Shown piece by piece: positions 26,724-60,427 of a DNA stretch of 64,000 bases (the first letter of the stretch is position 1; every line of letters begins with the position of its first letter). The stretch spans positions 3,847,464-3,911,463 of the forward strand of contig CM049320.1 in NCBI GenBank assembly GCA_026874595.1, in the 5' to 3' direction. The translations under genes and the position numbers were made by a program. This DNA is from Sipunculus nudus. Lineage: Eukaryota > Annelida > Sipuncula > Golfingiida > Sipunculidae. The notes below the pieces were generated by a model that was not told the origin of the DNA, searched no databases, and saw nothing but the letters and a program-made list of their open reading frames with translations.

Positions 26724-26850
26724 CCAATCAGTGAACAATATGGTAACCACGTGACCACGCTGGTGTAGGCTCAGTGAAGGAACCTCGTGTATATTGTGCA
26801 CGGAGACAGGACAAATCGTTCAGTGTTTTCACACCGATAACAACCTCAAA
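26724..26850 (+). promoter_or_regulatory. Putative promoter and 5' leader of the modular gene
   Basis: A CCAAT box in ATCCAATCAG (CCAAT at 26724-26728) and an E-box in ACCACGTGAC (CACGTG at 26748-26753) lie 100-125 bases upstream of the ATG at 26851. The leader GATAACAACCTCAAAATGG gives the start a reasonable context (A at -3, G at +4). There is no clear TATA box. Sites and start are inferred from position. Confidence 0.4.
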
Positions 26851-26907
26851 ATGGCCGACAGTAAACCCGAACTATCCCGTGCTGGCACAATGCAAGTGAC
26901 TGCTAAG
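26851..26907 (+). CDS. Modular TAK-motif protein, exon 1 (start)
   Basis: This is the first of six coding exons (26851-26907, 28227-28394, 29756-29905, 35160-35286, 35771-35880, 44336-44431) that join in frame to 708 bases, a 235-residue protein. I do not recognise the protein. Exon 1 encodes MADSKPELSRAGTMQVTAK and stops exactly at a codon boundary before GTTGGT. That donor is weak (a GTAAAA lies 4 bases on), but the phase-0 junction after TAK is shared with exons 2, 3 and 5, which supports it. The RAGTMQVTAK end is the first half of the motif completed by EG-x-x-[FLY]-L at the start of the next exon. No signal peptide or membrane segment is visible in any exon. The composition is strongly charged, suggesting a disordered, probably nuclear protein (inference). 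Confidence 0.7.
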
Positions 26908-28226
26908 GTTGGTAAAAGATCACGATTGCATTGTCTGGAAATTTAAGTCGAGAGATGGACACTTGTCAACCGATCAGAAATCCATGTTTGTGAACATGGC
27001 CGGTTTGTTTATCTTAAATGTGACGCTTTTTCGACCTTGGAATCTGAAAATTAAGATAATTTATGCATCTCATATCATATTATTGCCTGTAAAGCGAGCT
27101 CAGTTTAAATATCTTTTCTTAATCTCCAGAGGTTTCTTCAAAACGCGCTCGCGAAAGATGTCGTCCAAATCGGTGCTCAAAATGGCGGCACCGCCCATAT
27201 TTTGCTGCCGATGGGGTCTTGACCCTGGCACGTAGTTGGCGTCCCGACGCGCAGGGGTAGTCTCAAAATCAACATTGTGCGCAGGCCTGATATCAATGGC
27301 TGATTTGCCAGTTTTTACGACATAGGTTCATAACAACTGGTCAGTCCCTTCCGGTTTCAGTTCAGCCCTGTTCTGATTCTGTTTGTTGGTGGCAAGGCAA
27401 CTGTAAAACTATAACCCATCTGTCATTTTCAAAAAGAAAATCAACATTTGATTTATAGGGTGTCATCAGGTCGACATATTGACCTGAAATAGCAGGTCAT
27501 TTCAGGTCAGATTAAGGGTTCAGACTGGAAATTTCACCCTGACTTCTTTGCAGACCTGTACAAATCAGCCTGAACATCTTTGCATGTGAAATTTGCTCTT
27601 TTTTCTGTTATCATAATTTATTTGATTGGAGTGACAGTAGGTTGCATTTTCTTCACAGTCAAAATGGGGTTAAAAGTTGATTGTAGGCTGTAAGCTTTGT
27701 GCGAGTCCAGTCTGATAAGAAATTACCACAGAACAGATTCAATAATTCTGTGATTAATCAATTGTTCATAAATATATGTGTGCTTTCTTGTTGCTACATT
27801 TCATAAAAATGTATATTTGTCATTACCTGGAGAATATTTCATCAACAAATTTGATAAATATTTTGGCAGGCACATGATTTATCAGTATATTTTTACAGTC
27901 TGATATTTGTCATAAGCTAAGTCATATATGCAGCCATATAAAATTAAATAAGGGAAAAAGTTACAATTGTGAGAGGGTAATATTTCTTTTAGTTGAAAGG
28001 AGTGGATTTTACATAATCATGATAATCTTTTTTTTTCTTGTTTGTAATATTTCGGGGAGCAAGAGAACTTGTGTGCTGTGTGTTGTGTTTGTTACCCTGC
28101 TCTTTTCAGTTTAAGAATCAGTGTACGACAAGTTAATGAATTACCAGTACAATGTATGTAATGTGTTACCCAGGTATTCTGTCACTGTAAGTTCATTAGC
28201 TATTCCCTCTGTCAATGTATTTGTAG
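26908..28226 (+). other. Intron 1 of the modular gene
   Basis: This intron is mostly unique sequence, GC-richer in its first 350 bases. A 108-codon open frame there (26909-27235) has no family likeness and overlaps the donor, so it is read as chance. Confidence 0.6.
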
Positions 28227-28394
28227 GAAGGTCAGGTCTTCCTGGACAAAAATTTGACAGAATGGAAAAAACCCTATCTTACTGAGCATTTTGATGGGGA
28301 TGCTAATGATAATGACAAGGAAACCCCAGATGCAAACTCCGAATCTGATAAGCCCAAACTGTCCAAACACACAACCATGAAGGCAACCGCAAAA
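28227..28394 (+). CDS. Modular TAK-motif protein, exon 2
   Basis: This 56-residue exon (residues 20-75) runs from the acceptor TTTGTAG to the donor GTGAGT, with both junctions in phase 0. It starts EGQVFLDKNLTEWKKPYLTE, then an acidic Asp/Asn/Glu linker with a DANDNDKETPD core, then KPKLSKHTTMKATAK. The start completes the motif begun in exon 1 and the end opens the next one. It has the only Trp of the protein. The frame would run on into the intron, but the donor is good and the TAK junction is shared with the sister exons. Confidence 0.78.
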
Positions 28395-29755
28395 GTGAGT
28401 GTCCTCACCCTGTCTGTTGTCCTGTCCCTGGTGTATGTCCTAGCAAAGATGGTGGCGCCCTCTAAGTAAACATACAAGTGGGGGGAAATACGGTTAGACT
28501 GACAGTTTTATCAGTAATGTGAAAAATATTAGGACCAAATCTTGTCTTGATGCAGAAATTAATGACGATAAAAACAGGAATTATTGAAGAACATCTTTAT
28601 ATTTTCTTTTTGTGTGGGGGGGGGGAGAAGGGGCTATATCTAATTAGATTGAATATAAAGTCTTCAGAGATTTGCTCTGAATTGGTCTGAAATTGAGATT
28701 TGTTTTATAATCACTTGTAAGTCTGAAACCTAATCAGGTGTTTTTTTTGTGAGAATATTACATGCAGTGGGAATTAAAAATAAAACCCCTCTCTACCAAA
28801 GGTCCAAATGAATATTCTGAAAATGCTTTTGAAACAGTTATTTATACTAATAAGCCTATGTTAAAGAACCATATGGGACGTGGTTGGCTCTCTAAGTTGA
28901 AAAAAAATGTGACTTACTCAAAACATTCTTAGTACATTACAACAAGATGAGGGTGCCACAGTGTTCAATGCCTCCCTTTGCCCTGCATGCTTTGGTGTCT
29001 CCTTCCTGTCTAACATTTATAACTGGTATTCTTGAGAACTTCACAAGTATCACATGGATGCTAATTTTCACTGATTGGTCTTCACAGGTAAATTACTAAT
29101 ACAGGTTTACTTGATGATGCTGTATGGTCCAAGGTGGCATGGTTGAGTATTCTGTTGTTAATCTAAAGACTCATCTTTTCAGCGGCTGATGGCATCATTG
29201 GCATGTTTAATGGGGTGCTTATTGTATTTAGTTGTATTTATTTTATCTGAATTAATTATCAACACGTTTGGGTTATTATCTTCTTCCCAGGCCAGAGTGA
29301 TAAATTTTTTTTTTTTCAGAATGTTTGACCTCACAGTGCATGCTTAAAGGCTTTTCATATATGCCTGTTTTAACCCATGCATGGCCAGAAGTGTAATATT
29401 AAATATGTATTCTTGCCTTGTGAACTAAACATTAGATAATGCTAACAATCATGTATATAAAATATTTAATGTATGTCTTGAATATAATTTTGTTCTGGTA
29501 AATTTATTTGTCTTCAGATTATAAATCCAATATTTTTACATCATCAAACAAGTCAGTAGGCAACCTATCTGTATATCAGTTTATTTTCCTATTAAATGAA
29601 TTAAAAAGGGGAAAAGTTCCATATATTACAACTTGGATAAATAAACAAGTACAATTGAATGGATATGAATATATATGAAACTGTTTAGCTTTGATATGGA
29701 AGGTGAGAAATCAGAGCTCATAAAACTGATAGTGTGCATTTTTATCTGTACACAG
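28395..29755 (+). other. Intron 2 of the modular gene
   Basis: Unique AT-rich intron sequence with a short poly-G tract near 28616-28624. No repeat family listed here was recognised in it. Confidence 0.6.
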
Positions 29756-29905
29756 GAGGCTGACGCCCTTCTCGGGTCCGACAAACCAGACACTGACGCA
29801 CACACCAGGGGGCAGCAGAAGAAGCTGGACGATATCAAGTCTGAGGCTCCACCAGCCAAAAAACCAAAGATGTCCAAGGCAGGCACAATGGCTGTCACAG
29901 CCAAG
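29756..29905 (+). CDS. Modular TAK-motif protein, exon 3
   Basis: This 50-residue exon (residues 76-125) runs from the acceptor GTACACAG to the donor GTATGA, in phase 0 at both ends. It starts EADALLGSDKPD, has a charged linker with QQKKLDDIKSE, then PPAKKPKMSK, which resembles a monopartite nuclear localisation signal, and ends AGTMAVTAK. Its last 15 residues are the closest match to exon 2's end (KPK-x-SK-x-x-TM-x-x-TAK), consistent with exon duplication followed by linker divergence. Confidence 0.8.
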
Positions 29906-30092
29906 GTATGACCCTCATATCAAATATTACTGTCTGTAATGTGTGGTCAAGAGATGTAATTATACTTGCAGGTTTCAGGGTTTGTTTTGATGAGATGACG
30001 GATGAGAGGAGATGTTGATGGCTTTGCTGTTGCTAATCACATGACAGTGACATCTTTGGTCAGATATTGTATCGTTGTGACTTGTAAGGATG

Positions 30093-30440
30093 TTTTTAGC
30101 TCAGCTGACTGTAAGTCAACTGAGGTATAGGAATGGCGCTTTGTCCTTCGTCCGCCGTCCGGCCATCCATTAGCAGGGCACAAATCGTACCTGCTGATCC
30201 TAGAAACTTCTAAGTAAACATCCAAGGAGGTCAATAAAAAATCTCCTTGGAAACCTGAAATTAGGTCACTGTGACCTATATCCTCCGAGCTATGGGGCTT
30301 GAAAGTACCCCCCAGAATTATAAAAAATATAATAAAAAACCTCAGATATCTTGATAATTAATGCATGGATTGTCATGAATCTTGCCTTGAATATTGACCA
30401 TGATTAGTTTTGTCAGTTCCCGAAAAGTGGTGGACTTGTA
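30093..30440 (+). mobile_element. Family D element, copy D1
   Basis: It starts TTTTTAGCTCAGCTGACTGTAAGTC, followed by GTCC-rich sequence and the phrases GGGCACAAATCGTACC and CTAGAAACTTCTAAG, shared with 36651-37014 and with reversed copies at 19930-20231 and 61926-62287. It stops where family B begins, so B1 either abuts it or inserted at its end. Confidence 0.6.
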
Positions 30441-33045
30441 TTTTTAGCTCAGCTGACTATAAGTCATCTGAGCTATAGTCGTGGTCCTTTGTCCGTCGGC
30501 TGTCCATCCGTCCATTAAACTGGCACGTTTTGAAACCGTAAGACCCAGGAATCCAAAATTTGGCATAATGTTAGATGTCCCCAAGATCTCCTACCAAGCT
30601 GAAAACTGGGTCTTTGTGGCTTTGTTCCTTTGAGAAATTAAGGAAAAACCTCAATTTTATATTAAAAACCTATTTTCACACTTCAGGACTGCCTAATATC
30701 AAAACCAAACATCTGCTTTTCCTCATATTTACCATAAATATTCCTGTATATAGTTTCTATGTACATGCCAGAAATTATGTCTGTATTATGTAAATTTTAA
30801 AAAGTTATGTGCCCTAACATAATGCATTTTGTAAAAACTCCGGAAAGATATTTGATCACTTAACACAATACATGTTAAAGCTAAGGACTTTTTTTCCAGT
30901 AATATAACTTTAAATAATAAAAATTAAATTGTACACCCAAAATTAGATCAAAATCTTTTAAAAATTTTTAAAATATTAGCAAAAATAAAAAATATTGGTA
31001 CTTTAAATTTTGCCCAACTTTGCCTATGGCACATTTTTTCCTGTAAATGCTGTGGATTTTATTTTCACAGCATTTTGTTAGCATTTCATCTGTTAACACT
31101 AAAAATTTGAAACCAGTTGATCAAAAACTAGATTTTATTCAAGTTTTCAAGCACCATGTCACATATTATTTACATCAAGCTAGTGTAATGCAGTTTGCTA
31201 GAGCTCAGCTCCCCAGCTTCAGCTCTCAGTTCCTAAAATATGACATACAGTTAGATGTCTCCAAAATCCCATACCATGCTAAGAATTTGGTCACTAGGAC
31301 TTAATTCCTTTTATATATTAATGAAAAACTTTATTTTTCCATTAAAAACCCATTGTTACACTGTAAGACTGTCTAATATCAAAACCACTGATCTGACTTC
31401 ATCATATATAATAAACATTTTTTTCTATTCATTCACTATGCACATGCCAGAAATGATGTCAGTATTGCGTAATTGATTTGTGTTATGGGCCCAAACATAA
31501 TGCACTTTGTAAAAAATCAAGAAATACATTTACTCCCTTAACAAGAGGATTGATGAAGCTAGAGATTTTTTTGTCAGGGATTCAACATTATTTGATCAAG
31601 ATTCAATTGAATACCCAAAATTAGTTCTGAATTTTTCAAATTTTATGAATTATTAGTATAAATATAAAATTAGTACCTTAAATTTTGCCCAACTTTGACC
31701 ATGGCACGTTTGTTTCCTGTGAGCACTGTTGATATAATTTTCATATCATGCATACATAAGGATTTCAGCTTTTTAGTTTAGAAAGCTGAAAGAAAATGGC
31801 CAAAAATTGTAGCTTTTATTAATGTTTAAAGTCACTCTCCAGTCACCTGTATGTTGACCTTATTGACCTTTCAGCAAATTATGCACGCTTGAGGGAGGCA
31901 TACACTGGGGCAGCCAGGCAGCTTATGGCCAGCCACAGTTGATCCAGGTGTCCAACCCAACTTATCTAGTAGTTGTTTTGACCAACAGCTTAACAAGAAA
32001 CTATAAATTAATAAATTTTCATTGGTTTTTAATAACAAATTAAAGAAAAATTAATAGAAAAGGAATTTGTTAGTTGATGAGTAACAGAAAATTAAAATGC
32101 AGTTACTGATGATGTAAGAATCTTGTATGGATGGATAGAATGTCAATGTCAATGTTATTCCAAATAACACCATGCAGTCACCTATGGTATTTTTCAGTGA
32201 AATTTTAATGATAAAAAAATAAATCATATTATTCATTACTAATCATTAGGGATCATATGAAGGAAATTAATGATAGACAAAGAAGCAGTTGATAATATTA
32301 ATCTAGATTCCTACTGTGTCTAGTGTGTAGATTGATGTGAAAGTAGTCCAAAGTGAATATATTACATTTATTTTTTTTTAATATAAATAAAAGCCATAAA
32401 ACCAGGTACTTAAGATCATTATTGAAATTTGTGAATTTGATATATTCTGGATTCTCAACATCATTGTTTGGCTAAAACTGAATAAATACCAGACATGGTG
32501 CAAATACTTTGCAAATGTATTTGAATACGAATATGAATCATTATAAAATTTCTTGCATAAGATTGGGAATTCAAGTAAAAATGGAAGTATTTGAATACCA
32601 GTGCAAATACTTTCAAAATGTATTCATGAATGCATTCATGAATATATTCTATAATATTATTTTAATAATCATTTCAGTTATATTTTATTTAAAAAAAAAA
32701 TCATGATTCTCTTTTTTTTTTTAATACAAATTATATTTGGCACAATATTTGTTATTAAATTTTAATAAATAGTTAAACTCTTATATTATATGTGCTGCTT
32801 ATAAGTTATATGGCCAAGTCGAAATCTGTGTGACAATAGCACTCCATTTGTCAATAAAATAAATGAAATCAATCCTCTTCCCTGTCTCCAAAGATACTAT
32901 CAAAATCATACATAAGCTAAACACCAACAACTCATAATAAAGCTTTTATTTATTACCACACAAAACCAGCATGTGCCTCATTTCCAAAACATATTTTTTC
33001 ATCATATATAACAGCTGAGCGCCGTGACCCATGGGTCCCTTGTTT
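30441..33045 (+). mobile_element. Family B element, copy B1 (full length)
   Basis: The 5' end is TTTTTAGCTCAGCTGACTAT. GCTCAGCTG (30447-30455) recurs inverted as CAGCTGAGC at 33012-33020, just before the perfect palindrome GACCCATGGGTC (33026-33037), and the element ends CCTTGTT. The interior has two related about 680-base halves (TTTGGCATAATGTTAGATGTC near 30557 and its partner near 31238) and a 24-bp palindrome at 32621-32644. Its open frames recur in the other copies as repeat sequence. No transposase or Rep frame is present. It lies inside intron 3 of the modular gene. Confidence 0.8.
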
Positions 33046-33069
33046 GTTATTTTAATGAATATTTTTCTA

Positions 33070-34645
33070 TTTTTTTTTTTACTATAAAACTACAACAATC
33101 ATGTCAGTTTCTCAGCTGTAATTACATCTAGTGTCCCAAAACTTGGTGTGTTCATTGATCACAAGTGGATGCCATATGGTTATCACCCTGTTTGTTTGTT
33201 TGTCATCTGTCTATCTGTCAGTCTGTCCATCCACATAAATTTGTTTCCAGATGATAACTCCAGGTTGTATTGACACATGGATTTCAAACTTGACTTGCCT
33301 ATGGCCAACCACTAAAGCAAGAACCTATATGATTTTGGGGTCATAAAAAAAAGGTCACAGGACTCATTTCTTTAAAAAGAATGCACATGCATTTGAAGCC
33401 AAGCTTTTCATCCCAAACTTTCAGTTTTGCGCATTTAGCTGACTTGCCAGTATAGGGAGAGCATAAATAAATTTGGGGTCACATGGGCAAAGGTCAAGGT
33501 CACAGGAGCCATCTGTTCACAAATTAGTTTCCAGTTGATAACTCCAGTTTAGTTCGACATATTGGTTTCAAACTGAACTTATATATGACTCACCACTAAA
33601 GTAAGAACCGTGTTGATTTTAGGGTCAAAGGTCAAGGTCACAGGACTCTTCTTTTAAAAGAATGCATATGCATTTGAAGCCAAACTTTTTATAGCAAACC
33701 TTCCATCTTCAAGATATTGCTAACCTGCCAATTGGGAAGATTCAGTTCAGTTTTGGGGTCATAAGGTCAAAGGTCAAGGTCACAGTACCCACTTATTTAG
33801 AAAGATTGTAGACGCAATTTAAGCCAAACTTTTCATCCCAAACCTTCCATCTTGTACATATAGCCGAGCTGCCAATAGGGGAAGAATCTGATTGATTCGG
33901 TGGTCACAAGGTCAAAGGTCATGGTCACAGGGGCTCATCTGTCAACATATTTGTTTCTTGATGATAACTCCAGTTTGAATTGACATATTGGTTTCAATTT
34001 TGACTTATATATGACCCACCAATAATGTAAGAACCCTTTTGATTTTGGGTCATAATACCAAAGGTCGTGGTCACAGGACCCACTTCTTTAAAAAGATTGT
34101 TGATGAATTTTTAGCCAAACTTTCTGTCCCAAACCTTCTATCTTCCAGATGTTGCTCACCTGCCAATAGTGGAAGTAACTTTGAGGTCCAAAGGTCAAGG
34201 TCATAGGGGCCATCTATCTACATATTAGTTTCCAGATGATAACACCAGTTTGGTTTGAAATCTTGGTTTTAAACTTATATATGGCCCACAACATAAGTAA
34301 GAACTGTTGATTCAGGTTCATGAGATCAAAGGTCAAGGTCACAGGACCCACTTCTTTAGAAAAAATTGTGGATGCATTTTGAGCCAAACTTTTCATCTCA
34401 ATCCTTCCATCATCGACATGTGGTGCACCTGCCAATAGGGGAAGTTTCCTTTTGATTTTTGGGTCACAAGGTCAAAGGTAAGGTCACAGGGCCCATCCAT
34501 TCACAAATCAGTTTATGGATAATAACTCCAGTGTGGGTAGACAGGTTGGCTTCAAACTGATGACAAATATTTTGGAAAACCTCATAAACATATATCCTTA
34601 TAGACAAATGCAGCTGAGCATCGAGACTCTTGGGTCCCTAATTTA
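33070..34645 (+). mobile_element. Family C element, copy C1, with AGGTCA arrays
   Basis: The start region ACTATAAAACTACAACAATC / CATGTCAGTTTCTCAGCTG matches the copies at 39664 and, reversed, 61925. The end is GCAGCTGAGC followed by GGGTCCCTAATT. The body consists of about 140-base repeats centred on AAAGGTCAAGGTCACAGG, with eight or so recognisable centres (for example 33622-33640 and 33764-33782). CTCAGCTG near the 5' end and CAGCTGAG near the 3' end form an inverted pair, as in family B. Confidence 0.7.
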
Positions 34646-35159
34646 ATCAATGATTATTGAACGGGAAATAAAAAAAAGAAAATTTTTTATAAGTGAGACC
34701 TGATGGTCAGATATGGTTACTAGTTAGGATACTAGTTTGTGGATGTATAATGACTGATACTGGTATGGATGGGTTGCCTATCATCATTCCATAGTCCTGT
34801 TGTTAGGAAGCACTAACTTTAAATGCTAGGCCAGATGTTGGGCTTTTGATCCGAGTTTAAATGCTACTCTTTTGTGTGTCATGTATGTATCATCTCTGCA
34901 AGGTCAAACCAAGGTGGCTCTGCCTCCAGACCTGTGTGTGTTGTGTTAAACTTGCAGTTTCCTCAGGAATTTATTTGTAAAAGAACAAATTAATGGTTGT
35001 TTCAGAGATTAAAAGTTTATGTTATGTCTCACCGTGGAAGTGCTGTCTAATAAACAGAGAACAGAGATGGCTACTTTAGTGCAATAATCTGTGAAAGAAG
35101 CCTGTACATAAAACAAATATGAGCAAAAACAAATACTGGTATTATAATTATATGATTAG

Positions 35160-35286
35160 GAAGGCAAGAACCTGCTGAAGGGAGAGAAGCTGGCAGACAC
35201 GAGGCAGGAAACCAAAGCACGATCAAGCCCCAAGGCAACGGGCGGGATGAAGAGAACGTCCACCATCGCCAAGACCATGGCAGAAG
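35160..35286 (+). CDS. Modular TAK-motif protein, exon 4 (diverged module)
   Basis: The exon holds 42 full codons (residues 126-167) plus one base, from the acceptor GATTAG to the donor GTGAGC. It starts EGKNLLKGEKLADTR and ends in MKRTSTIAKTMAE. The end aligns with the others only if TSTIAKTMA stands for x-GTM-x-x-TAK, so that the Glu opening the second half-motif is kept in this exon and the intron lies 4 bases further right, in phase 1 instead of 0. The linker is basic (TKARSSPKATGG). The next exon joins to restore Ala (G|CT), keeping the frame. Confidence 0.78.
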
Positions 35287-35770
35287 GTGAGCTTTAATCT
35301 GTCATAACCTGACCCTGCTTTTGTCTAACATTGCAGATAATGGTTAAAGTTGGAGAGCTACATCATATTCAGCTTAGTCGACTGGAAGTCACCTGAGCAG
35401 TTGGGATCTAACCCTTTGCCTGTTGTCTGTTTGTCCATTTGTCATGCTCTTAATAGGGCTGCAATACTATACATTACCCTGGTCATATTGGTAAGAAAAT
35501 TATGTGCCCTGTGCCAGTACCCTGGCATCCAAAAGCAGCAAATGTGACCTATTCAAGCATATTGATAAGTGAAATGAGGTGTAACATGACCCCTCCATAG
35601 TAAATACAAAATAGTGCAGGATATATTTGTAAGATTTCAAGATAAGATCAAAATTTAAGTCTTACATTCCTACATATTCAGCATTATTTTAACAGAATGT
35701 CCTCGCTGTTATAGAATATGAAATTTAATGCATTTTCAGCGTTCAAATGAACCGGGTTTTCATTTTTCAG
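35287..35770 (+). other. Intron 4 of the modular gene
   Basis: A short intron of 484 bases without recognised repeats. Confidence 0.7.
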
Positions 35771-35880
35771 CTCAAGCAGTGTATGGAGACCTTGGAAACA
35801 TTGAAGGTCGTCGTACAAGGTCAGCTGGAAAACCAAAACCAGCCATGAAGAAGGAAGGAACCATGCAGGCAACAGCCAAG
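35771..35880 (+). CDS. Modular TAK-motif protein, exon 5
   Basis: The exon runs from the acceptor TTTTTCAG to the donor GTGTGT. It starts in the middle of the Ala codon left by exon 4 and adds 36 residues (169-204). It reads QAVYGDLGNIEGRRTRSAGK and then PKPAMKKEGTMQATAK. The beginning corresponds to the second half-motif (E-A-x-x-VY) and the end is again KEGTMQATAK at a codon boundary. It is the shortest and most basic of the middle modules. The intron to exon 4 is only 484 bases, much shorter than its neighbours. Confidence 0.8.
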
Positions 35881-36650
35881 GTGTGTACTTGTGTCATAAT
35901 TTGCATAGTTGGATACCTCTATAGTTAGTAAAGTGTTTTGAGCCATCCTGGAAAACTGAGTAAACCTAGAAAATGACTTTCCTTTTTCCAGGCAGTAGAA
36001 TGTCAGGGGATTTGAGAAAAGAATCATAAGTCAGGGAATTTAATTTACCATTTGAATAAATATTGGTCAGTCGATTAAAGTTTATCCCATGTCCAAATAG
36101 CATATACACTGGATTGTTGGTCTGTGAACACTTTTCATGTGGAATTTGATGGAAAAATTATCTTTGAATTATGAAAATTCAAAGGGTAAAAATGAGGGAA
36201 TTTTTTATCATTAAACACTGGGAAGCCTTGATTCAAAGGCAATGTGTTATGGGTGTTGGTTTTTCTCTACTTTTTGTACCTATTACATTTATTGAAGTTT
36301 TAAACTTGTTTGCATGTTTTGCTTGTGGTATGTTTTGCTCCTCTATTTCTGGCACAGCTGACTCTCAGTCACTATAGTGATGGACCTTTATCTGTCTTCT
36401 TCCATCTCATCAATCCTTGTTATTTCAGTACAAATAATATCTATGTTTGATCTTGAAGAGTGTGTAATACTGTTGAAAAAAATATTGAATAAAAAATTAA
36501 GTAAATGTAATTACCTCGTGTACACATATTTTTCTGCTATGCAAATTTTAATCAAACTGGCCCTGTTGAATTTATTAAAGTGTCACTTAATCAGATTGGA
36601 CAGTTTGATCAGTTGTATGTCATAATGTGACTAGTTGCACCATTTATAGC

Positions 36651-37013
36651 TTTTAGCTCAGCTGACTGAGAGTCAACTGAGTATAGGAATGCCATCCCTG
36701 TCATTTGTCTAGCTGCTTAGGCATCCTTAGCAAGGCACAAATCATGACCGCTGACCCTAGAAGCTTCTAAGTGAACATCCATGGAGGTCGATAAAAAATC
36801 TGCTTGGAATTAGGTCACTGCGCCCTTATCCTCTGAGCTATGGGGCTTGTAAGTACCCCTCCAAATAATTAAAAATTTGATACAAAACCTCCAATATCTT
36901 GATAATTATTGCATTGATTGTCAAAAATCTTGGTTTTTATATTGACCATGAATAGTTTTGTCAGTTCGAAGAAAACTGGTGGCACCAACTGAATTTTTTT
37001 CTGATTTCTCCAA
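36651..37013 (+). mobile_element. Family D element, copy D2
   Basis: It starts TTTTAGCTCAGCTGACTGAGAGTC and carries GGCACAAATCATGACC and CTAGAAGCTTCTAAG. It is followed directly by D3, whose head repeats at 37014. Confidence 0.6.
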
Positions 37014-38388
37014 TTTTTTTAGTTCAGCTGACTGAAAGTCATCTGAGCTTTAGGGATCACTCTTTGTCCACTGTCCGTCTGTCTGTCCGGCTGTCTGTTA
37101 ACAGGGCACAAATCATAACTTCTTACTGAACATCCATGGAGGTTCATAAAAAATCTCCTTTCAAAACGTGAAATTAGGTCACTATGACCTATATCCTTCA
37201 AGCTATGCGGCTCTTAAGTAACCCCCCCACCCCCAAGAAAAATTTAAAAGCTCCAATATCTGTATAACTAGTGCATTGATTGCCATGATTCTTTTCATAT
37301 GTATTGATCACGGAGTGTTTCATCAGTTCCTGAAGACAGGTGAAGCCATCTGTACTTTTTCTAATTTTTGCACATTTTTTCTCTATTTGGAACCTTCAAA
37401 TGATGCAATCAAGCTGTTAAGGGGCCTCAAATCGTGACTGTTAGACCTAGAAACTTTTAACTGTTTCTTCAGGCCAAAAAGATGATTTTAATGACCCAGT
37501 GAGTCAGGCAGGTCTCAAATTGTAATTGCTGGACCTAGGAGCTTCTATCTGAATACCCTTAGAAGACCATAAAAATCTTCCTTTGAAGAATGAAATAAAG
37601 GTCACTGCGACCTATAACTTCCAAACTCTTGGGCTCAAAATACCCCCCAGAATTATTATACATTTAATATGAAAGCTTGGTATCGTGAATATCTAATGCA
37701 TTGATGGCCATGATTATTGCCATACATATTAATCTTGGAGTGTTTCATTATTTCCTGAAGATGGGTGGTGCCATCTGCACTTTCTAATTTTTGTGCATTT
37801 ATTCTCTATTTTTGAGACCTTCAAAAGATGCAGTCTGCCTGTTAAGGCGGCACAAACAATAACTGTTAAACCTAGAAACTTTTAACTGTACATCCAGGGA
37901 GGTTCAGAGGCAAATCTCCTCTGAAACATGGAATTGGGTGACATTGAGATGTATTCTACCAGCCTCTGACAGAAAACATGATTTTGAGCACCCATAGAGT
38001 CAGACAGGGCACAAATGTTATCTATTTGGCTAAGAATCTTTAGACTCAATATCCAAGGAAGTCTTGGGCAAGTTCCTTTTGATTCCTGAAATAAGGTCAC
38101 TGTGACCTATATTCTGTGAGCTATGAGCACCCAAAAAATCACACAGGGTACTAATCTTAAATGTCTTTCTTGATGTAAACCTAGGTCATTTTTATGTCTC
38201 CTTGATCATCCAGAATAAGGTCACTGTGACCTGTATTCTGTTAGTTTTGTGAAAGAACATAATTTTAGTACCCTCTAAGTCAGATGGACACAAGTCGTAG
38301 CAGATTAACATAGAAACCTTAACTTAGCATTTTTGGATGTCCTAATAAAATCTTCTTGGAAACATCAAATAAGGTTACAGGTCATGAG
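37014..38388 (+). mobile_element. Family D element, copy D3 (expanded)
   Basis: A second head, TTTTTTTAGTTCAGCTGACTGAAAGTC, is followed by at least four tandem versions of the GGCACAAATC...AGAAACTTTTAA...AAATAAGGTCACTGTGACCTAT module, so it is longer than other D copies. It ends where the F element starts. Confidence 0.55.
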
Positions 38389-39489
38389 TTTTGCGGATAC
38401 TATGTTTTCAGCCCACCGCCGCCGCCGGGATTATGTTCGGGTCACATGTGAACTGCTGCGCCCCAATTTGTTTTGACCTCTGACCTTTCCTCTGCGCTCT
38501 GCGTTCGTTTGTGCGTCTGTTTCCACAAATAAACCCACTCATCTCGGAAACCGTTTGACCGATCAGGAAAATTTTTTGGCACAAATGTAGCCCTTGGAGA
38601 GCTTTGTAACAAACACAAAAAATGGTGGCGTCACCTGTAACCATGTTTGCACAGTGTCCATCTGTTCGTCTGCCTTGGGTTAAAATCACTCATATTTCTG
38701 CAGTGGTTTGACTAATTCACCTGAAATTCGGTATGCGTAAACATCCTGGATAGCTTTTCTGATTTTATGACAGGTGGCGCCACCTACATTCACTTTTACG
38801 CTGCAGACATCCAAGCTCATATCTCGGGAACCGTTTGACCGATTGGGCCAAAATTTTGCATGTGTATAGATCTCACATAGCTCTTTATCATATGCAAAAC
38901 TGGTGGCGCCACCTGCAGCCATTTTTGCACAGCTCCCATCTATTTGTCTGCCATGGGAAAAAATCACTCATATCTCGGCAGTGGTTTGACATATCTGCCT
39001 AAAATTTTGCAGGTTCATACATCCCCGACAGCTCTCTTGATTTTATGACAGGTGGCGCCACCTACATTCTAGTTTATGCAGCAGATATCCAAGCTCATAT
39101 CTTGGGAACCGTTTGACCGATTGGGCCAAAGTTTTGCATGTGTATAGTTCTCACATAGCTCATTTATCATACGCAAAACTAGTGGCGCCACCTGCAACCA
39201 TTTTTGCACAGCGTCCATCTGTTTGTCTGCCAAGGGCAAAAATCACTCATATACATGTAGTGGTTTGACTTATCTGCCTTAAATTTTGCATATGTATACG
39301 ACTTGGATGGCTTTCTGGATTGTGTGGTAGGTGGCGCAACCTACATACACAATTTGGCTGCAGACATCCATGCTTATATGCAACACCTCACTCTATTTCC
39401 CCTTGCCACTCAATCCATGCCTCACTTCACCCATTCCACTCTGATTTAGGCGGATACACGTAGTCGCTTGTCGACTACCCGTATTCTAG
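38389..39489 (+). mobile_element. Family F Helitron-like element, copy F2
   Basis: It starts near GAGTTTTGCGGATACTATG, the same head as at about 53962, and holds 270-280-bp modules with GGTGGCGCCACC boxes at about 38773, 38903, 39052 and 39182. The 3' end has a perfect 7-bp stem, GTAGTCG (39460-39466) with CGACTAC (39472-39478), then 7 nt, then CTAG at 39486-39489 followed by T. This fits canonical Helitron ends. It has no replicase frame. The exact 5' base is not certain. Confidence 0.65.
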
Positions 39490-39663
39490 TTGTAACCTAT
39501 TTTCAAAGGATTGTGGGCAAACAAAAATGATTTGTAGCATTCTGGAAGTCTACTCATTGTTCAATGTTCCTTAACAAATATTTTTCACCAGATCATAACT
39601 TCAATCATGCATCACATGTTTTTCAAGTTCAGCTCTAGTAATGGCCCACGGACCACTAGTTAC

Positions 39664-40993
39664 ATTTTTTAGACCATAAAATGACAACAATCATGACATA
39701 TTCTCAACTTTGGTTTTTGTCTTCTGTCCCAAAAGCTTGTGTGTTTATTGGTCATAAGCAGTGGCCTGTAGAAATCATCCTGTCTGTCTGTCTGCCTGTC
39801 CATCCACAAATTGTTTCCAGATGATATTAACATATGTGGATTTCTTTCTTACTTATGGCCCACTAATAAAATGTATGTATGACCCATCAATAAGGAAAGA
39901 ACCCTTTCAATTTTGGGGTCATGAGGTCAAAGTTGAAGGTCACAGGTACCATTCCTTTAAAAAGATTGCGTATGCATTTTTAGCCATACTTTTCATCACA
40001 AACCTCCATCTTCCAGATATTGCTCACCTGTCAAATTCTTTTCAATTTTTGGGTTAGAGGGTCAAAGGTCTAGGTGAAAAGGCACTTCCATTCACAAATT
40101 AACTTTTTGACGATTTCCCTTGATTTGTCCCCCACTGACAGCCCCTTGTTCAGCCCTATCAGCAGGAGACATAGAAATGGTGAGCATCCGTCCATCTGCC
40201 TGTGTGTCACAGATAAGTTAATGAAAAGAATTTGAGCCTTGGTCACCAAACTTTCAGCTTCGATGCATCTCACTAAGGGCTAGGTCAAGTTAGAATATGG
40301 GTATCCTTGACACATTTCTCAAGGTCACATAGGCAATAATGCAGAAATGAAATTATCATAATAACTCAAAAAGAATTTGAGGCACAGTCACCAAACTTGC
40401 AGCCTTCAAGTACCTTATGAAGGACAAGGTCAAGTTGGAATATGGATGACATTGATGCAGTTTTTAAGGGCACAAAGGTAATCCTGGTGGGTGACAGTGA
40501 CCCATCTCAGTTCCATACAGGTTTTCACAACTTGTCCACGACAGGTGAGGGGGGGGGGGGGGGACATACCAGATATGTTCCACAGATCAACTTTTCCCTT
40601 GTTTTGACAGACAGGTTGGCTTCAGCCTTGATTTATTAATGACCAAGCACTATGATAAGAATCATTTTGATTTCAGGTTTCCAAGGTCAAAGGTGAAGGT
40701 CACAGGACCCACATGCATTGATTGTGAATGCATTGTAAATAAAACTTTTCATCCTAAACCTTCCTTCTTTCATATGGCTTACCTGCTCAGGGAACAAGGG
40801 CACTGGACCCACTTTCTTTAAAAGGTTGTAATGAAAATCAAATTGGTGTAAGTTAAAGGAAAGTAAGTGTTCACATTGTTTTATCATAAATTTAAGAGTA
40901 ACGGTCACAATACCCGGTTTTTTAAAAAAAACTCATAAAATATCCTTATAGTCAAACTCAGCTGAGTTTCATTACCAGTGGGTCCCGAGTTAA
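39664..40993 (+). mobile_element. Family C element, copy C2, interrupted by family E
   Basis: The start TTTTTTAGACCATAAAATGACAAC matches C1. The end ACTCAGCTGAG...GTGGGTCCCGAGTT matches the family end. The AGGTCA repeats are fewer and more worn than in C1. The copy is split by E2 at 40157-40604. Confidence 0.65.
40157..40604 (+). mobile_element. Family E element, copy E2, nested in C2
   Basis: It runs from the AGCAGGAGACATAGAAATGG head to ATCAACTTTTCCCTTGTT and matches E1 (18731-19196). C2 sequence resumes at GACAGACAGGTTGGCTTCA. It includes a G run at about 40549-40563. Confidence 0.65.
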
Positions 40994-41257
40994 TCATTGT
41001 AAAACATTTTAAAAAGTTTTACTTTGATAAGAAAATTTATACAAATTGTAAGTATAATTTACTTTGTATAACTAAATTTCTACAGATTAGTCTGTTACAC
41101 ATATTTCCTTGGAACAAAATCCATTGAACCTGTTCTTTAATTTCTCAATCATTTTGCATGGATTTTTGCTTTACTTTTAAAGCTAGATATCTTTCTGTGA
41201 TATGCATAGTATATAGTAGATGTCTCCATCCATTGAAATATACCAGATGTGCATCAA

Positions 41258-43972
41258 TTTTTAGCTCAGCTGACTATAAGTCATCTGAGCTATAGTCGTG
41301 GTCCATTGTCCGTCGTCCGTCCATCCGTCCGTCCGTAGATGTGGCACGTTTTGAAACCGTAAGACCTAGGAATCCAAAATTTGGCATAATGTTAGATGTC
41401 CCCAAGATCTCCTACCAAGCCGAAAACTGGGTCTTTGCAACTTTGTTCCTTTGAGAAATTAAGGAAAAACCTCAATTTTTTATTAAAAACCTATTTTCAC
41501 ACTTCAGGACTGCCTAATATCAAAACCACTCATCTGTTTTTCCTCATATTTACCATAAACATTCCTCTATATAATTCCTATGAACATGCCAGAAATTATG
41601 TCTGTATTATATAATTTAAAAAAGTTATGGGCCCAAACATAATGCATTTTGTAAAAAATCAGGAAAGATATTTGATCACTTAACACAAAACATGTTAAAG
41701 CTATGGACTTTTTTCCAGTAATATAACTTTAATTAATCAAAATTAAATTGTATACCCAAAATTAGATCAAAATCTTTTAAATTTTTAAAAATATTAACAA
41801 AAATAAAAAATTGGTACCTTAAATTTTGCCAAACTTTGACCATGGCACGTTTTTTTCCTGTAAGTACTGTGGATTTAATTTTCACAGCATGTTTTTGTTA
41901 GCATTTTGCCTGTTAACACCAAAAATTTGAAACCAGTTGATTAAAAACTGTAGATTTTATTTAAGTTTTTCAAGCACCATGTAACATATTGTTTACATCA
42001 AGCTAGTGTTATGCAGTTTACAAGAGCTCAGCTCCCCAGCTTCAGCTCTCAGTTCCTAAAATTTGGCATACAAATAGATGTCTCAAAAATCCCCTACCAT
42101 GCTAAGAATTTGGTCACTTGGACTTAATACCTTCGAGATATTAATGAAAAACTTCATTTTTCCATTAAAAACCCATTGTTACACTTCAAGACTGCCTAAT
42201 ATCAAAACCACTGATCTGACTTTAATCATATATAATATACATATTTTTCTATACATTCTCTATGCAAATGCCAGAAATGATGTCAGTATTGCCTAATTGT
42301 TTTAAGTTATTGGCCAAAACATAATGCACTTTGTAAAAAATCAAGAAATACATTTACTCCCTTAACAAGAGGATTGATGAAGCTAGAGATTTTTTGTCAG
42401 GGATGTAACATTATTTAATCAAGATTCAATTGAATACCCAAAATTAGTTCTGTATTTTTCAAATTTTATAAGTTATTAGTATAAATATAAAATTAGTAAC
42501 TTAAATTTTGCCCAACTTTGACCATGGCACGTTTGTTTCCTGTGAGCACTGTTGATATAATTAAACACATAAGGATTTCAGCTTTTTAGTTTAGAAAGCT
42601 GAAAGAAATTGGCAAAAAATTATAGTTTTTATTAATGTTTTTATGAGACCATGTCAGACCTTGGCTCTCTCTAGCCCCTCTTGAGTCACCTGTATGTTGA
42701 CCTTGTTGAACTTTCAGCAAATTATGCATGCTTGAGGCGAGGCATAAACTAGGGCAGCCAGGCAGCTTATGGCCAGCCACAGTTGATCCAGGTGTCCAGC
42801 CCAACTCATCTAGTAGTTTTTACCAACAACTAAACAATAAATTAATAAATTTTTATTGATTTTTAATAACAAATTAAAGAAAAATAGAAAAGGAATTTGT
42901 TAGTTGATAATAACAGGAAATTAACTTGAGTTACTGATGATATAAGAATCTTGTATCAAATTAATAAATTTTTATTGATTTTTAATAACAAATTAAAGAA
43001 AAATAGAAAAGGAATTTGTTAGTTGATAATAACAGGAAAGAGAGTTACTGATGATATAAGAATCTTGTATCGATGGATAGAATGTCACATATTCCAAATA
43101 ACACCATGCAGTCACCCATGGCAATTCTCAGTTCAATTTTAATGATAAAAAAGTAAATCATATTATTCATTACTAATCATTAGGGATCATATGAAAAAAA
43201 TTAATGATAGACAAAGATGCAGTTGATAATATTAATCTAGATTCCTACTGTTTCTAGTGTGTAGATTGATGTGAAAGTAGTCCAAAGTGAATATATTACA
43301 TTTATTTTTTAATATAAATAAAAGCCATAAAACCAGGTACTTATGATCATTATTTAAATGTGTGAATTTTGTAAATTCTGGATTCTCAACATCATTGTTT
43401 GGTGAAAACTGAATAAATACCAGACATGGTGCAATACTTTGCAACTGTATTTAAATACAAATATGAATATGTACTCCATGATAAAATTTCTTTCATAAGA
43501 ATGGGAATTCAGGTAAAAATGAAAGTATATGAATATCAGTGCAAATACTTACAAAATGTATTCATGAATGCATTCATGAATATATTCTTTAATATTATTT
43601 TAATAATCACTTCAGTTATATTTTATTTTAAAAAATCATACGATTCTCTTATTATTTTTAATAAAAATTATATTTGGGACAATATTTGTATTATTTTAAT
43701 AAATAGTTAAACTCTTATATTATATGTTCTGCTTATAAGTTATATGGCTAAGTCAAAATCTGTGTGACAATAGCACTCCATTTGTTAATAAAATAAATGA
43801 AATCAATCCTCTTCCCTGTCTCCAAAGGTACTATCTAAATCATACATAAGCTAAACAACTCATAATACAGCTTATTTTTTTACCACATAAAACCAGCATC
43901 TGCCTCATTTCTAAATCATATTTTTTAATCATATATAACAGCTGAGTGCCGTGACCCATAGGTCCCTTGTTT
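41258..43972 (+). mobile_element. Family B element, copy B2 (full length, with internal duplication)
   Basis: It has the same ends as B1: TTTTTAGCTCAGCTGACTAT, then CAGCTGAG and GACCCATAGGTCCCTTGTT (the palindrome has one change). It is about 100 bases longer than B1 because a 119-base segment (from about 42841 and again from about 42960) is duplicated in tandem. The 24-bp palindrome is kept at 43559-43582. Confidence 0.8.
42841..43078 (+). repeat. 119-bp tandem duplication in B2
   Basis: ATTAATAAATTTTTATTGAT starts at 42841 and again at 42960, and the two units run to CTTGTATC with few differences. B1 and B3 have a single copy. Confidence 0.85.
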
Positions 43973-44335
43973 TTTTTAATTTTGGCAAGTTTCATGGTTA
44001 TTTGAGACTGACAATGATCAGTCCTGTTTGGGTCAGCTACCTGTAAGCTGAGCCTCATGACCCAAGGGTCCCTTGTTTAAGGTTTAACCAAAACCAATTA
44101 ACTGAAATACTTGTAGTCAAAAATCTATCATACTGATATATGAAAACCTGATGAGCAAAACATTATTTTGACTTTAAATAAAAGTATGATTATGTCAGAG
44201 TGATCAGTTGTAAATGACAGCTGGTGAGCTTCTCAGAGCTTACTGATTTTCTACACAAGAATTGTAAAGAATTGTATAAATTTGTAAATCATATCATCCA
44301 AGATTTTATCATTGTAACTTTACTTTGTTTGACAG

Positions 44336-44431
44336 GAGGGAAAGGCATATCTGAAGAGAGGCAGAAAGCCAGCGAAGAAGGCCGAGCCCGAACCGGTGGA
44401 GGAGGATGAAGAGGAAAACGAAGAGTCCTAA
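44336..44431 (+). CDS. Modular TAK-motif protein, last exon: AT-hook-like core and acidic tail
   Basis: The exon follows an acceptor TTTGACAG after an 8.5-kb intron and starts in phase 0 with EGKAYLKRGRKPAKK, then AEPEPVEEDEEENEES and TAA at 44429-44431. EG-x-x-YL completes the fifth motif. KRGRKPAKK resembles an AT-hook or other minor-groove/linker-DNA-type basic patch. The strongly acidic C-terminus recalls small chromatin proteins of the HMGA/HMGN kind. That likeness is compositional, not evidence of descent. The codon choice is GC-rich compared with the surrounding AT-rich DNA, as expected of a real exon. Confidence 0.82.
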   Translation, partial: EGKAYLKRGRKPAKKAEPEPVEEDEEENEES

Positions 44432-44563: not shown

Positions 44564-44569
44564 AATAAA
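44564..44569 (+). terminator. AATAAA polyadenylation signal of the modular gene
   Basis: A canonical AATAAA lies 133 bases after the TAA. A second AATAAA follows at about 44599. The position suits a short 3' UTR. Confidence 0.65.
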
Positions 44570-45280
44570 CATTGTTATAAAAAATCCTGGGATGTCAATA
44601 AATATAGGTGTAGTCTAAAATATGAAGATTCTGCCAGTGTTTGTTGACATGGTGGCACGTAATTGGTAGGCTTTATCAGGAATGCTTATTTCATGCCACT
44701 GATGTCACGATTGAAAGGGGAACAAAGGGCTTTAAGAGACACAGTTTTCGATTTTGCATATGTACTGGAGACCTGAATTACAATTAGAAAACAGCGGTCA
44801 TTTTAATTACATATATTGGATACATATAGTTAATTGGAAATTTAGTCATCACAGTATGCATATTTTAAACCTGTACATAGGTGCCAGTGGTGAACACCCC
44901 TTCTCTGCCATCTCATTACATTAGTGTATCATTCATTCACTAGAGGTCACTCTTAGGCAGTTTTATGTGTTCAAACAAAGGTTAAAGATAGCAGGCCACT
45001 TTTAAGATACTTCTCCTGTTTTTTTGCACCCTGAGTCTAAAATGTAAGAATAAACTTCACAAGATTCACTATAATCAGTAAACAGTGATGACATATTTAA
45101 AGATGGATGTAGGACATATAAGTAAGCCCTTAATAACAAGAATTTTACAAATTGTTTCTTTAAAGAGATATAGTGACTGTATTTTGACACTTCATATACA
45201 GTAGATTAATATTTTTATATATCTTTAAACATGACATGCTCTAAGGTGTTTCATTATTCTGTAAGAGTGCTCTTTAGAAA

Positions 45281-48031: not shown

Positions 48032-48855
48032 TGGTATACAAGCACCTCGGTTAATATTAACAGAGGAAATAACGTGTTCCGGAACATAAGAAGATCAGCC
48101 CAGTCTTTTGTATCGAGTTAATTATTAAGGCCTGCTAATTATGCTATGAATTGAACTTTCGGGAAATTGAGGTCAATTTTTAAGCCTTTTCACATAATTA
48201 TAAAGATTTGTTTCATTTTACAAAGTTTTTGTTTAGTCGGCAAGATTTAAAATGTAGAATTCTGCCAATGTGGGCTGAAGTCTTGTTGATTTTTGTGGGT
48301 TTTATTTTATTTTATATTTACTGAGTCCGCTGTTTTATCATGTTTGTAGCAGAGTATATTTGTAGAGAGCTCTTCTTCTATACCTGTTGAAAAATGTGGA
48401 TTTTTACATGTTTTGCTCATGTTTGTAGCTTCTGTGCTCCTCTTTATAAAGTTTACTGTGGTGTCACGTGATTTATATTGTATGTGCTGTTCCGTTGCTG
48501 CCTCCCTTGCTGAGGCAGGGACTGTAGTGTCTGCAGCTTATTTTCTTTGTAGCTGAATAAAATAAAATAAAAATACCAATCATGTGTGTTTTTTTCGTCC
48601 TTGTTGACTAGGCCTTTATCATTAAAGGTTTCTGGTATCTTGAACTGTCATTGCACTCGTCCGCCAGAGGTCGTTTATACGAGTTCAGGATTAGAGGAAG
48701 ACTGGGACTGCTCTCAATTGTCGGGATGAGGGATTCCAGCGACTCCCTTGTTCCTTTTTATTCTTATGAAAAAAATTTGTCTTGTTATTTCCAATATATT
48801 CCGACATTTAGGCTTCTATTTTCATATGTCATTGATCTTCTATTTTCATTTGTTA

Positions 48856-51500
48856 TTTTTAGCTCAGCTGAATATAAGTCATCTGAGCTATAGTCGTGGT
48901 CCATTGTCCGTCGTCCGTCTGTCTGTCCGTCCGTCCGGATGTCCGTCCGTAAGACTGGCACGTTTCGACACCATTGGACCTACGAATCTGAAATTTGCCA
49001 TACAGTTAGATGTCCCAAAAATCTCGTACCATGCCGAAAATTGGGTCAATAGGACTTCGTTCCTTTGAGATATTAAGGAAAAACCTCATTTTTTATTAGA
49101 AATCTATTTTCACACTTCAGGACTGCCTAATATCAAAACCACTCATCTGGTTTTCTTCATATTTACCATAAATATTCCTCTATATAGTTCCTATGTACAT
49201 GCCAGAAATTAAGTAAGTATTATTTAATTTTAAAAAAGTTATGGGCCCAAACATAATGGACTTTGTAAAAAAATCAGGAAAGATATTTGGTCACTTAGGA
49301 CCAAAAGTGTTAAAGGTAGGGACTTTTATTTCAGTAATACAACTTTAATTGATCAAAATTTAATTGTTTACCAAAAATTAGATCAAAATCTGTTATTTTT
49401 ATTTTAAATATTGGCAAAAATATAAAATTGGTACCTTAATTTTGCCCAAGTTTGACCATGGCACTTTTTTTTCCTGTAAGTACTGTGGATTTAATTTTCA
49501 CAGCATGTTTTTGTTAGGATTTTGTCTGTTAACACAAAAAAAACTGTAGATTTTCTTCAAGTTTTCAAGCACCATGTCACATCAAGTCTACATCAAGCTA
49601 GTGTTATGCAGGTTGCTAGAGTTCAGCTCCCCAGCTTCAGCTCTAAGTTTCTTAAATTTAGCATACAGTTAGATGTCTCCAAAATCCCCTACCATGCCAA
49701 GAATTTTATCACTAGGACTTAATTCCTTCGAAATATTAATGAAAAACTTCATTTTCCATTAAAAACCCATTGTTACACTGTAAGACTGCCTAATATCAAA
49801 ACCACTGATCTGACTTTGATCATATATAATATATATATTTTTCTATACATTCGCTATGCACATGCCAGAAATGATGTCAGTACTGCGTAATTGTTTTAAG
49901 TTATTGGCCAAAACATAATGCACTTTGTAAAAAATCAAGAAATACATTTACTCCCTTAACAAGAGTATTGCTGAAGCTAGAGATTTTTTGTTAGGGATGT
50001 AACATTATTTAATCAAGATTCAATTGAATACCAAAAATTAGTTCTGAATTTTTCTAATTTTATAAGTTATTAGTATAAATATAAAATTAGTACCTTAAAT
50101 TTTGCCCAACTTTGACCATGGCACGTTTGTTTCCTGAGAGCACTGTTGATATAATTTTCATATAATGCACACATTAGGATTTCAGCTTTTTAGTTAAGAA
50201 AGCTGAAAGAAATTGGCCAAATATTGTAGCTTTTATTGATGTTTATATGAGACCATGTCAGACCCAGGCTTAATCCAGCCCCACTTCAGTCACCTGTATG
50301 TTGACCTTGTTGACCTTTCATCAGATTATGCATGCTTGAGCGAAGCATACACTGAGGCAGCCAGGCAGCTAATGCCCAGCCACAGTTGATCCAGGTGTCC
50401 AACCCAACTCATCTAGTAGTTGTTTTGAAAAACAACATAACAATAAACAATAAATTAATAATTTTGTATTGTTTTTTTATAACAAATTAAAGAAAAATTA
50501 ATAGAAAAGGAATTTGTTAGTTGATGAGCAACAGAAAATTAACTTGCAGTTACTGATGATGTAAGAATCTTGTATGGATGGATAGAATGTCAATGTCAAT
50601 GTTATTCAAAATAACACCATGCAGTCACCTATGGTATTTTTCAGTTCAATTTTAATGATAAAAAAATAAATTATATTATTCATTACTAATCATTAGGGAT
50701 CATATGAAGGAAATTAATGATAGACAAAGATGCAGTTGATAATATTAATCTAGATTCCTACTGTGTCTAGTGTGTAGATTAATGTGAAAGTAGTCCAAAA
50801 TGAATATATTACATTTATTTTTTTTTAATATAAATAAAAGCCATAAAACCAGGTACTTATGATCATTATTTAAATTTGTGAATTTTGTATATTCTGGATT
50901 CTCAACATCTTTGTTGGGCTAAAACTGAATAAATACTAGACATGGTGCGAATGCTTTGCAAATGTATTTGAATACGAATATGAATATGTACTGCATTAAA
51001 AAATTTTATTGCATAAGAATAGGAATTCAGGTAAAAATGAAAGTATATGAATACCAGTGCAGATACTTTCAAAATGTATTCATGAATGCATTCATGAATA
51101 TATTCTATAATATTATTTCAATAATCATTTCAGTTATTTTTTATTTTAAAAAATCAGATGATTTTCTTATTATTATTTTTTAAATAAAAATTATATTGGC
51201 ACTATTTGTTATTAAATTTTAATAAATAGTTAAACTCTTTTATAATATGTGCTGCTTATAAGTTATATGGCCAAGTCAAAGTCTGTGTGACAATAGCACT
51301 CCATTTGTTAATAAAATAAATGAAATCAATCCCCTTCCCTGTCTCCAAAGAAACTATCAAAATCATATACAAGTTAAAGACCAACAACTCATAATAAAGC
51401 TTATATTTATTACCACCCAAAACCAGCATGTGCGTCTTTCCCAAATCATATTTTTTATCATATATAACAGCTGAGCGCCGTGACCCATGGGTCCCTTGTT
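48856..51500 (+). mobile_element. Family B element, copy B3 (full length)
   Basis: It runs from TTTTTAGCTCAGCTGAATAT to CAGCTGAGCGCCGTGACCCA / TGGGTCCCTTGTT. The inverted pair GCTCAGCTG/CAGCTGAGC, the 3' palindrome GACCCATGGGTC, the two-halves interior and the 24-bp palindrome (51077-51100) are all kept. It has the same direction as B1 and B2 but lies outside the modular gene. Confidence 0.8.
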
Positions 51501-54700: not shown

Positions 54701-55070
54701 CTTATGTATTCGCTGCAGACATTCAGGCTTATATGTCAGGACTGGTTTGACATGTCCCCCAGAAATTTTGCATGTGTATAGATCTCACATAGCTCTTAAT
54801 CATACACAAAATTTGTGGCGCTACCTGCCACCATTTTTGCACAGCGTTCTTCTGTTTGTCTGCTGTGGGATAAAATCACTCATATACAAGAAGTGGTTTG
54901 AATTATCTGCCTAAAATTTTGCATATGTATTTAGTATATATATATGTTTAGTACTTGCATTTTTCATATACATGTTACACGTGTTCTTGAAAAGTAATGG
55001 TCCAGCATTGAAGCATTATACCTGGTGTAATCTCATTGCACAGGTTCACATTAGGCCTGTAGGCCTTGTT
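51706..55070 (+). mobile_element. Family A element, copy A3 (most complete), with F sequence inside
   Basis: It starts TTTTTAGCGAACCTGTGAGC. GAACCTGTG (51714-51722) recurs inverted as CACAGGTTC at 55039-55047, followed by the hairpin AGGCCTGTAGGCCT (55053-55066) and the end TGTT at 55070. At about 53948, after GCCAGCTACAATCA, A sequence gives way to family F (head GAGTTTTGTGGATACTATG, modules to about 54935), then the last A segment resumes. The F part has lost its 3' hairpin, so a deletion joined the two. F modules carry GGTGGCGCCACC boxes at about 54258, 54408, 54537 and 54686. No transposase or Rep frame is present. Confidence 0.75.
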
Positions 55071-59562: not shown

Positions 59563-60427
59563 GAAATCAAGAGTACAGCTGTTTAGATATACGATAATAA
59601 AAATCATCCTTACATTCATAAGGTGTTTTAGGTATATGAAATAAATTCTAATAAGCACTTTTTTGCCTTTGTCTTTAATTTACAAGAGGAATCCAGTAAT
59701 TCTTTTCTTCATCATCTTGTCAGCACGGTAATGATATCAGGTTATGGTCGTCCTGGAGGGCCAACCTGATGGCCTTTAGTGCGTCTTTTGACCACGAGAT
59801 GGCGCTACGTCTTTCTTTTGCAATAATGTGTTGATAAGGTAATCAAGGATAAAATTTATTTTCCTTGACGGTTAGTTTGTGCTGTGTCAGAAAATATCAA
59901 GAGGAAAATATTATGTAACATCCGTTTGAGGGTCAATATCCATGACAAAATTTTAATTTAAAAACTTAAAACTACATTATTTGGTTGCCAAACGGAAAAT
60001 TTATAGTATATAGAAGTAACTGTATATTTGAACGGGATCAACTATTCAAAGCAGGTGATTAGCACACCAATAAAACGTTAGTTCTCGTAAACCGCATGGT
60101 GTGGATTTTCTGAATATAAGCACTCTGGTTTCTCTTCAGCCACGCATAAATCTTTCGCCTTTTACTAAAGATTTCCGTGGAGAGGAACACTACAATGAGT
60201 CTATGATTAATTTCTGAAACTCTGCAGTAGTAGGGTAACAAGTAATCAAAAGATAACAGCACACTTCCTTTTCCCTCATATATCCTGTATCAACATTTTC
60301 TCAATCATAACATTCTGAACATGATTTATTTGTGAAATACGGTTTTAAAAAAATAGATTAAGTTAGGTGTTATAAGCTGATAAAATCTACTTATAAAAAA
60401 TAAGCTAGGCCTCTTAAGTAACTAACT
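59563..60427. other. Unassigned spacer
   Basis: Unique AT-rich sequence with the CTCF-like site at 59792-59808. No gene was recognised. Confidence 0.55.
59792..59808 (+). promoter_or_regulatory. CTCF-like motif
   Basis: CCACGAGATGGCGCTAC fits the animal CTCF core closely and lies in unique sequence between the A4 and C3 elements. Confidence 0.35.

Follow-up and report, generated by a model that had tools for sequence, protein, structure and literature searches.

A predicted Sipunculus nudus gene in which four copies of a short protein motif are split at exon junctions

Repeat proteins are well known to grow exon by exon. Treacle and Nopp140 are nuclear repeat proteins with charged repeats, and the HMGN proteins are lysine-rich and disordered. 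Treacle (TCOF1) is described in one account as a nuclear phosphoprotein whose gene has many exons; two extra ones, of 231 and 108 bp, both have lengths that are multiples of 3 (PMC8470852). HMGNs appear as small charged chromatin proteins in a second account, which concerns vertebrate cells (PMC7013550). For Drosophila, a third describes introns gained at duplicated AG/GY proto-splice sites (PMC2891723).

The gene analyzed here lies in the window, the whole 64-kb stretch of DNA that was studied (C15:3847464-3911463). Like that of Treacle (PMC8470852), it is a many-exon gene with exon units divisible by 3; unlike Treacle and Nopp140, it has a conserved motif that spans exon junctions, and its protein gives no Pfam match to the family. 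As in the tandem exon duplication of repeat-protein genes, its symmetric-phase exons are duplicable units, whereas its motif is short, its protein predicted to be disordered, its linkers fully diverged, and its third unit split by an extra intron. The protein resembles the HMGNs in being small, charged, lysine-rich and, by prediction, disordered, and differs from them in repeating a motif four times and in having no nucleosome-binding domain match.

Gene model and motif copies at the exon junctions

Six exons on the plus strand join into one open frame with a single stop, from the ATG at 26851 to the TAA at 44431, and all five introns of this model are GT...AG. Two acceptors 9 nt apart, both in frame, are available for exon 5, and the upstream one (35771) outscores the downstream one (35780). 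The first-pass annotation had joined six exons in frame to 235 codons; we take this to be the version with exon 5 starting at 35771, the other start giving 232 aa. The features of the locus are as follows.

26790-26795, plus strand: TATA-like box (TATATT), starting 61 nt upstream of the ATG and 32 nt upstream of an initiator-like TCAGT, counted to the A of the latter at 26822
26851-26907, plus strand: exon 1, with the ATG start; 3' end is the first half motif PELSRAGTMQVTAK; donor AAG/GTTGGT
28227-28394, plus strand: exon 2, phase 0-0, 168 nt; from EGQVFL to PKLSKHTTMKATAK
29756-29905, plus strand: exon 3, phase 0-0, 150 nt; from EADALL to PAKKPKMSKAGTMAVTAK, with NLS-like PAKKPK inside
35160-35286, plus strand: exon 4, phase 0-1; from EGKNLL to TIAKTMAE
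35771 (or 35780)-35880, plus strand: exon 5, phase 1-0; 3' end PAMKKEGTMQATAK
44336-44431, plus strand: exon 6; EGKAYLKRGRKPAKK, acidic tail, stop TAA
44564 and 44597 (span 44564-44602), plus strand: two AATAAA hexamers, possible polyadenylation signals

Splice sites were scored with weight matrices that were not fitted to this species. Between 0.08 and 4.3% of the 3684 plus-strand GT sites in the window score as high as the donors of the gene, the extremes being exon 4, with the best donor of the five (0.08%), and exon 1 (matched or beaten by 4.3%). For the acceptors the range is 0.3-9.4% of 3350 plus-strand AG sites, excepting that of exon 4 and the downstream exon-5 site; exon 6 stands at 0.3%, and the two exon-5 sites at 2.1% (35771) and 16.6% (35780). 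The exon 4 acceptor is weak, a TTAG without a pyrimidine tract, and 40% of AG sites score as high. GC content is 42-58% in the exons versus 34-38% in the five introns. Pairs of TATA-like and initiator-like elements are common on the plus strand of the window (14 listed, with 13 distinct starts), and the pair upstream of exon 1 is no more than suggestive.

The motif comprises ∼20 residues and approximates P-x-[LM]-[SK]-[KR]-x-[GT]-T-M-x-x-T-A-K / E-[GA]-x-x-[FLY]-L. Four of the five junctions cut it between K and E in phase 0.

Junction 1/2, phase 0: PELSRAGTMQVTAK/EGQVFL
Junction 2/3, phase 0: PKLSKHTTMKATAK/EADALL
Junction 3/4, phase 0: PKMSKAGTMAVTAK/EGKNLL
Junction 5/6, phase 0: PAMKKEGTMQATAK/EGKAYL

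The mean pairwise BLOSUM62 score of the four 17-mers was 46.3, compared with 1.4 ± 3.5 (maximum 17.8) for shuffled sequences; none of 3000 shuffles reached 46.3, with the terminal K and E kept fixed because these splice-biased residues are partly a product of the splice consensus. Any two copies share 8-12 of 17 residues. Where degenerate residues are identical among copies, the codon differs in 36 of 55 pairwise comparisons, so it is the protein rather than the DNA that is conserved. The copies therefore appear ancient and maintained by protein-level selection, and nothing else in the data argues as strongly for a working gene. We also scanned both strands of the window, scoring the residues encoded just ahead of each GT and just behind each AG for resemblance to the half motifs. 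The four first halves scored 35.5-39.5, the next best being two unrelated peptides at 14.5; the four second halves scored 14.2-19.5, and nothing else passed the listing threshold of 12. Extra modules in the 5.3- and 8.5-kb introns were absent above threshold, a level at which a copy as weak as that at junction 4/5 would escape. Amphipathic moments of the four copies were 0.28-0.36 against a mean of 0.25 over all 13-mers of the protein, with no clear pattern in the four, and an amphipathic helix is unsupported. Literature searching that included six exact motif peptides listed no report on the motif.

An earlier claim placed the motif at every junction, five times. It held for junctions 1/2, 2/3, 3/4 and 5/6 and failed at 4/5, which is in phase 1 and where the best alignment puts the cut one codon and one base later. 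What resembles a first half at the 3' end of exon 4 scored 11.25 versus 40.3-46.3 for the true copies in a leave-one-out comparison (p 0.45 with the offset left free, 0.066 when kept close to the exon end). For the 17-mer over the junction p was 0.21 with the 232-aa product and 0.016 with the 235-aa product, which uses the better acceptor. A full fifth copy was rejected on this weak score; the p of 0.016 keeps a degenerate one possible. Our tally is four clear copies plus a possible degenerate fifth, which if real would favor the earlier count of five. With a phase-1 junction and at best a degenerate copy there, exons 4 and 5 act as one phase-0 unit divided by a 493-bp intron. The gene model could be partly wrong, with some exons not joined, exon 4 for example being cryptic or belonging elsewhere. 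The weak acceptor of exon 4 and the lack of a clear copy at junction 4/5 would fit such an error, but exon 4 opens with EGKNLL, its donor outscores the other four, the phases of exons 4 and 5 are compatible, and the whole frame is open; we regard a wrong model as quite unlikely.

Protein character and search for relatives

Lysine (15.9%), alanine (11.6%) and glutamate (10.3%) make up much of the predicted protein, and in the charge-hydropathy plane it falls on the disordered side (0.36 versus a boundary of 0.423); these values point to a mostly disordered, lysine-rich protein. The core of an AT-hook is RGRP. The peptide KRGRKPAKK, previously called AT-hook-like, carries RGRK and lacks that core, and the AT-hook profile, so short that it may be missed, was not listed in the Pfam scan up to E = 10. 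Of the proposal that NLS-like PAKKPK, this peptide and the acidic tail suggest a nuclear role, the basic stretches and the acidic tail therefore stand and the AT-hook does not. Composition, basic stretches and acidic tail are perhaps those of a protein with a nuclear or chromatin role.

The same properties (richness in lysine, alanine and acidic residues, basic stretches and an acidic C-terminus) would be expected if the protein had diverged from within a known chromatin or nucleolar family, whether HMGN-like, linker-histone-like or Treacle/Nopp140-like. We consider that improbable. The Pfam scan up to E = 10, in which HMMER filters discard most matches above about E 0.1, lists only a sub-threshold Spiralin and neither the HMGN nucleosome-binding domain (PF01101) nor a Treacle/Nopp140 family profile; the PDB sequence search found no chain up to E = 10, and BLASTP against human HMGN2 gave E = 39. 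The Spiralin match (E 0.012-0.18, below its cut-off) and four PDB profile matches (E 0.23-1) were taken as chance. The first-pass annotation had recognized no family and had named clear homology to a described one as a refutation. Both points came out in its favor in Pfam, NCBIfam and PDB sequences, collections other than animal proteomes, where no credible relative was found. The peptide pattern matched 70 stretches in IMG/VR and 53 in GTDB, none of them confirmed, both collections being without animal genomes by design; three pattern matches on viral contigs had frames with no further likeness.

The animal's own assembly (1.43 Gb, 153 contigs) was also searched. A protein search scored 24 candidates and gave six matches at E <= 10, all of them exons of this gene; no second copy was found in the assembly. 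The uninterrupted motif pattern ACNATGN6ACNGCNAARGARGS had no exact match in the 1.43 Gb. A second pattern, ACNATGN6ACNGCNAAGGT, describes a first half followed by a donor; it matched exactly 29 times versus seven for a reversed control. Three of these are exons 1, 3 and 5 of this gene, exon 2 falling outside the pattern because it ends in AAA. Of the 26 others, 10 were read in context as possible paralogues: nine have a stop in the stretch read, the tenth (L029) has TPTMLITAKV in common with a dispersed repeat, and in no case does the likeness to the gene go further. By their matched letters, most of the remaining 16 look like that same repeat. Two loci, L021 and L022 (C3:81966641 and C3:81974654), are tandem copies ∼8 kb apart, identical over the translated stretch, whose open stretch ends in TMMQTAK before a GT and is otherwise unlike this gene. 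A real, single-copy protein-coding gene, with splicing as predicted from its sites and frame, is part of the best explanation of the locus, which taken whole has about an even chance of being right.

Several observations were made on the surroundings. A minisatellite with a 31-bp unit (17.1 copies, 97%) occupies 9862-10389, and 60120-60236 is a full-length match to U5 spliceosomal RNA (90.8 bits). On one side of the window (L005, C15:3827464-3837463) lies a long tandem array with several open frames of up to 974 residues, TYNL[CY]P-like hexapeptides occurring in that longest frame. On the other (L007, C15:3911464-3921463), the minus strand carries an open frame with a match at E 1.2e-11 to PF00153, the mitochondrial carrier family; by eye we take this frame to recall SLC25A36. 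COX1 was matched 11 times in the assembly, nine with open frames of 577-578 residues in the standard code (C60, C61, C62, C66, C72, C74, C75, C89). The one read, on C60, is bacterial-looking by eye, and the match on C123 resembles a cbb3-type oxidase, so the assembly may contain bacterial, perhaps symbiont, contigs.

Origin of the array

Because each clear copy is split by a phase-0 intron at K/E, the gene can be read as three cassettes, exon 2 (168 nt), exon 3 (150 nt) and exons 4 plus 5 (228 nt, or 237 nt with the longer exon 5), each phase 0-0. The symmetric phase-0 exons of the earlier description are thus exon 2, exon 3 and the 4-5 pair, and not exons 4 and 5 singly. Each cassette begins with the second half motif, continues with a charged linker and ends with the first half. 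Growth by exon duplication, also proposed earlier, is plausible for these units from their repeated half motifs and phases. The linkers lend nothing to it: all 10 pairs of linkers are without detectable similarity (p 0.31-0.91), and the case that the units derive from one another rests on half motifs and phases. In the explanation that we prefer, the array would have grown by old duplication of symmetric cassettes, after which the linkers diverged, selection held the motif, and a phase-1 intron split the third cassette. One scheme would then explain the phase, the half-motif borders and the number of units.

An uninterrupted repeat array might instead have come first, with introns gained later and in parallel at the same AAG/GA proto-splice site of each copy. 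All four split points read AA[AG]/GA[AG], near the splice consensus itself, and the phase-1 intron 4 sits outside the cassette scheme. Since AAG/GA is a proto-splice site and such gains are described in the Drosophila account (PMC2891723), this is a serious rival. It would need several independent gains at exactly one codon boundary, however, and the motif similarity far exceeds the splice consensus even with the terminal K and E held fixed; we judge it unlikely, by a lesser degree than the wrong gene model or the known family. Orthologues, should there be any, could tell exon duplication and parallel intron gain apart by their introns and their numbers of cassettes.

Intron comparison does not settle the choice between these origins, since the repeats internal to introns 3 and 5, or shared by the two, include, among the matches listed, several that also lie outside the gene; none listed overlaps an exon. 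A dispersed element of ∼2.6-2.7 kb is present in three copies (30440-33056, 41257-43980 and 48850-51500; 86-92% identical in aligned pieces), two of them inside introns 3 and 5. Diverged local arrays with units near 270-290 bp occupy 33226-34643 (intron 3), related to 60424-61150, and 38430-39491 (intron 5), related to 7125-8174 and 54079-54930.

Possible cassette skipping and motif number

The simplest view of a short motif kept four times amid unrelated linkers is that it serves binding in a multivalent array, and the motif here probably binds a partner, the array then giving multivalency. The cassettes add a second property. Of the 16 subsets of internal exons, eight stay in frame to the same stop and eight are frameshifted (counted on the 232-aa model; the nine extra bases of the 235-aa model leave the frame unchanged). 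In each in-frame subset all phase-0 junctions complete a motif, so that a protein would have between one whole copy (exons 1 plus 6) and four. The in-frame skipping foreseen in the first-pass annotation is therefore possible for exon 2, exon 3 and the 4-5 pair, and not for exon 4 or exon 5 alone, by a frame test of anatomy. As all cassettes share the same half motifs at their ends, skipping would yield isoforms with fewer motifs and none broken.

The explanation as a whole, a disordered, perhaps nuclear array of four binding motifs that arose by old cassette duplication and permits skipping, is one we hold with evenly divided confidence. A bolder reading, that the gene is a splice-tunable valency device of a new family, with a binding motif formed only at junctions and up to eight in-frame proteins of one to four motifs, is tentative and on balance doubtful. 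If true, it would add a new protein family, and a short motif of a disordered protein completed only by splicing would be a neat way to alter binding valency.
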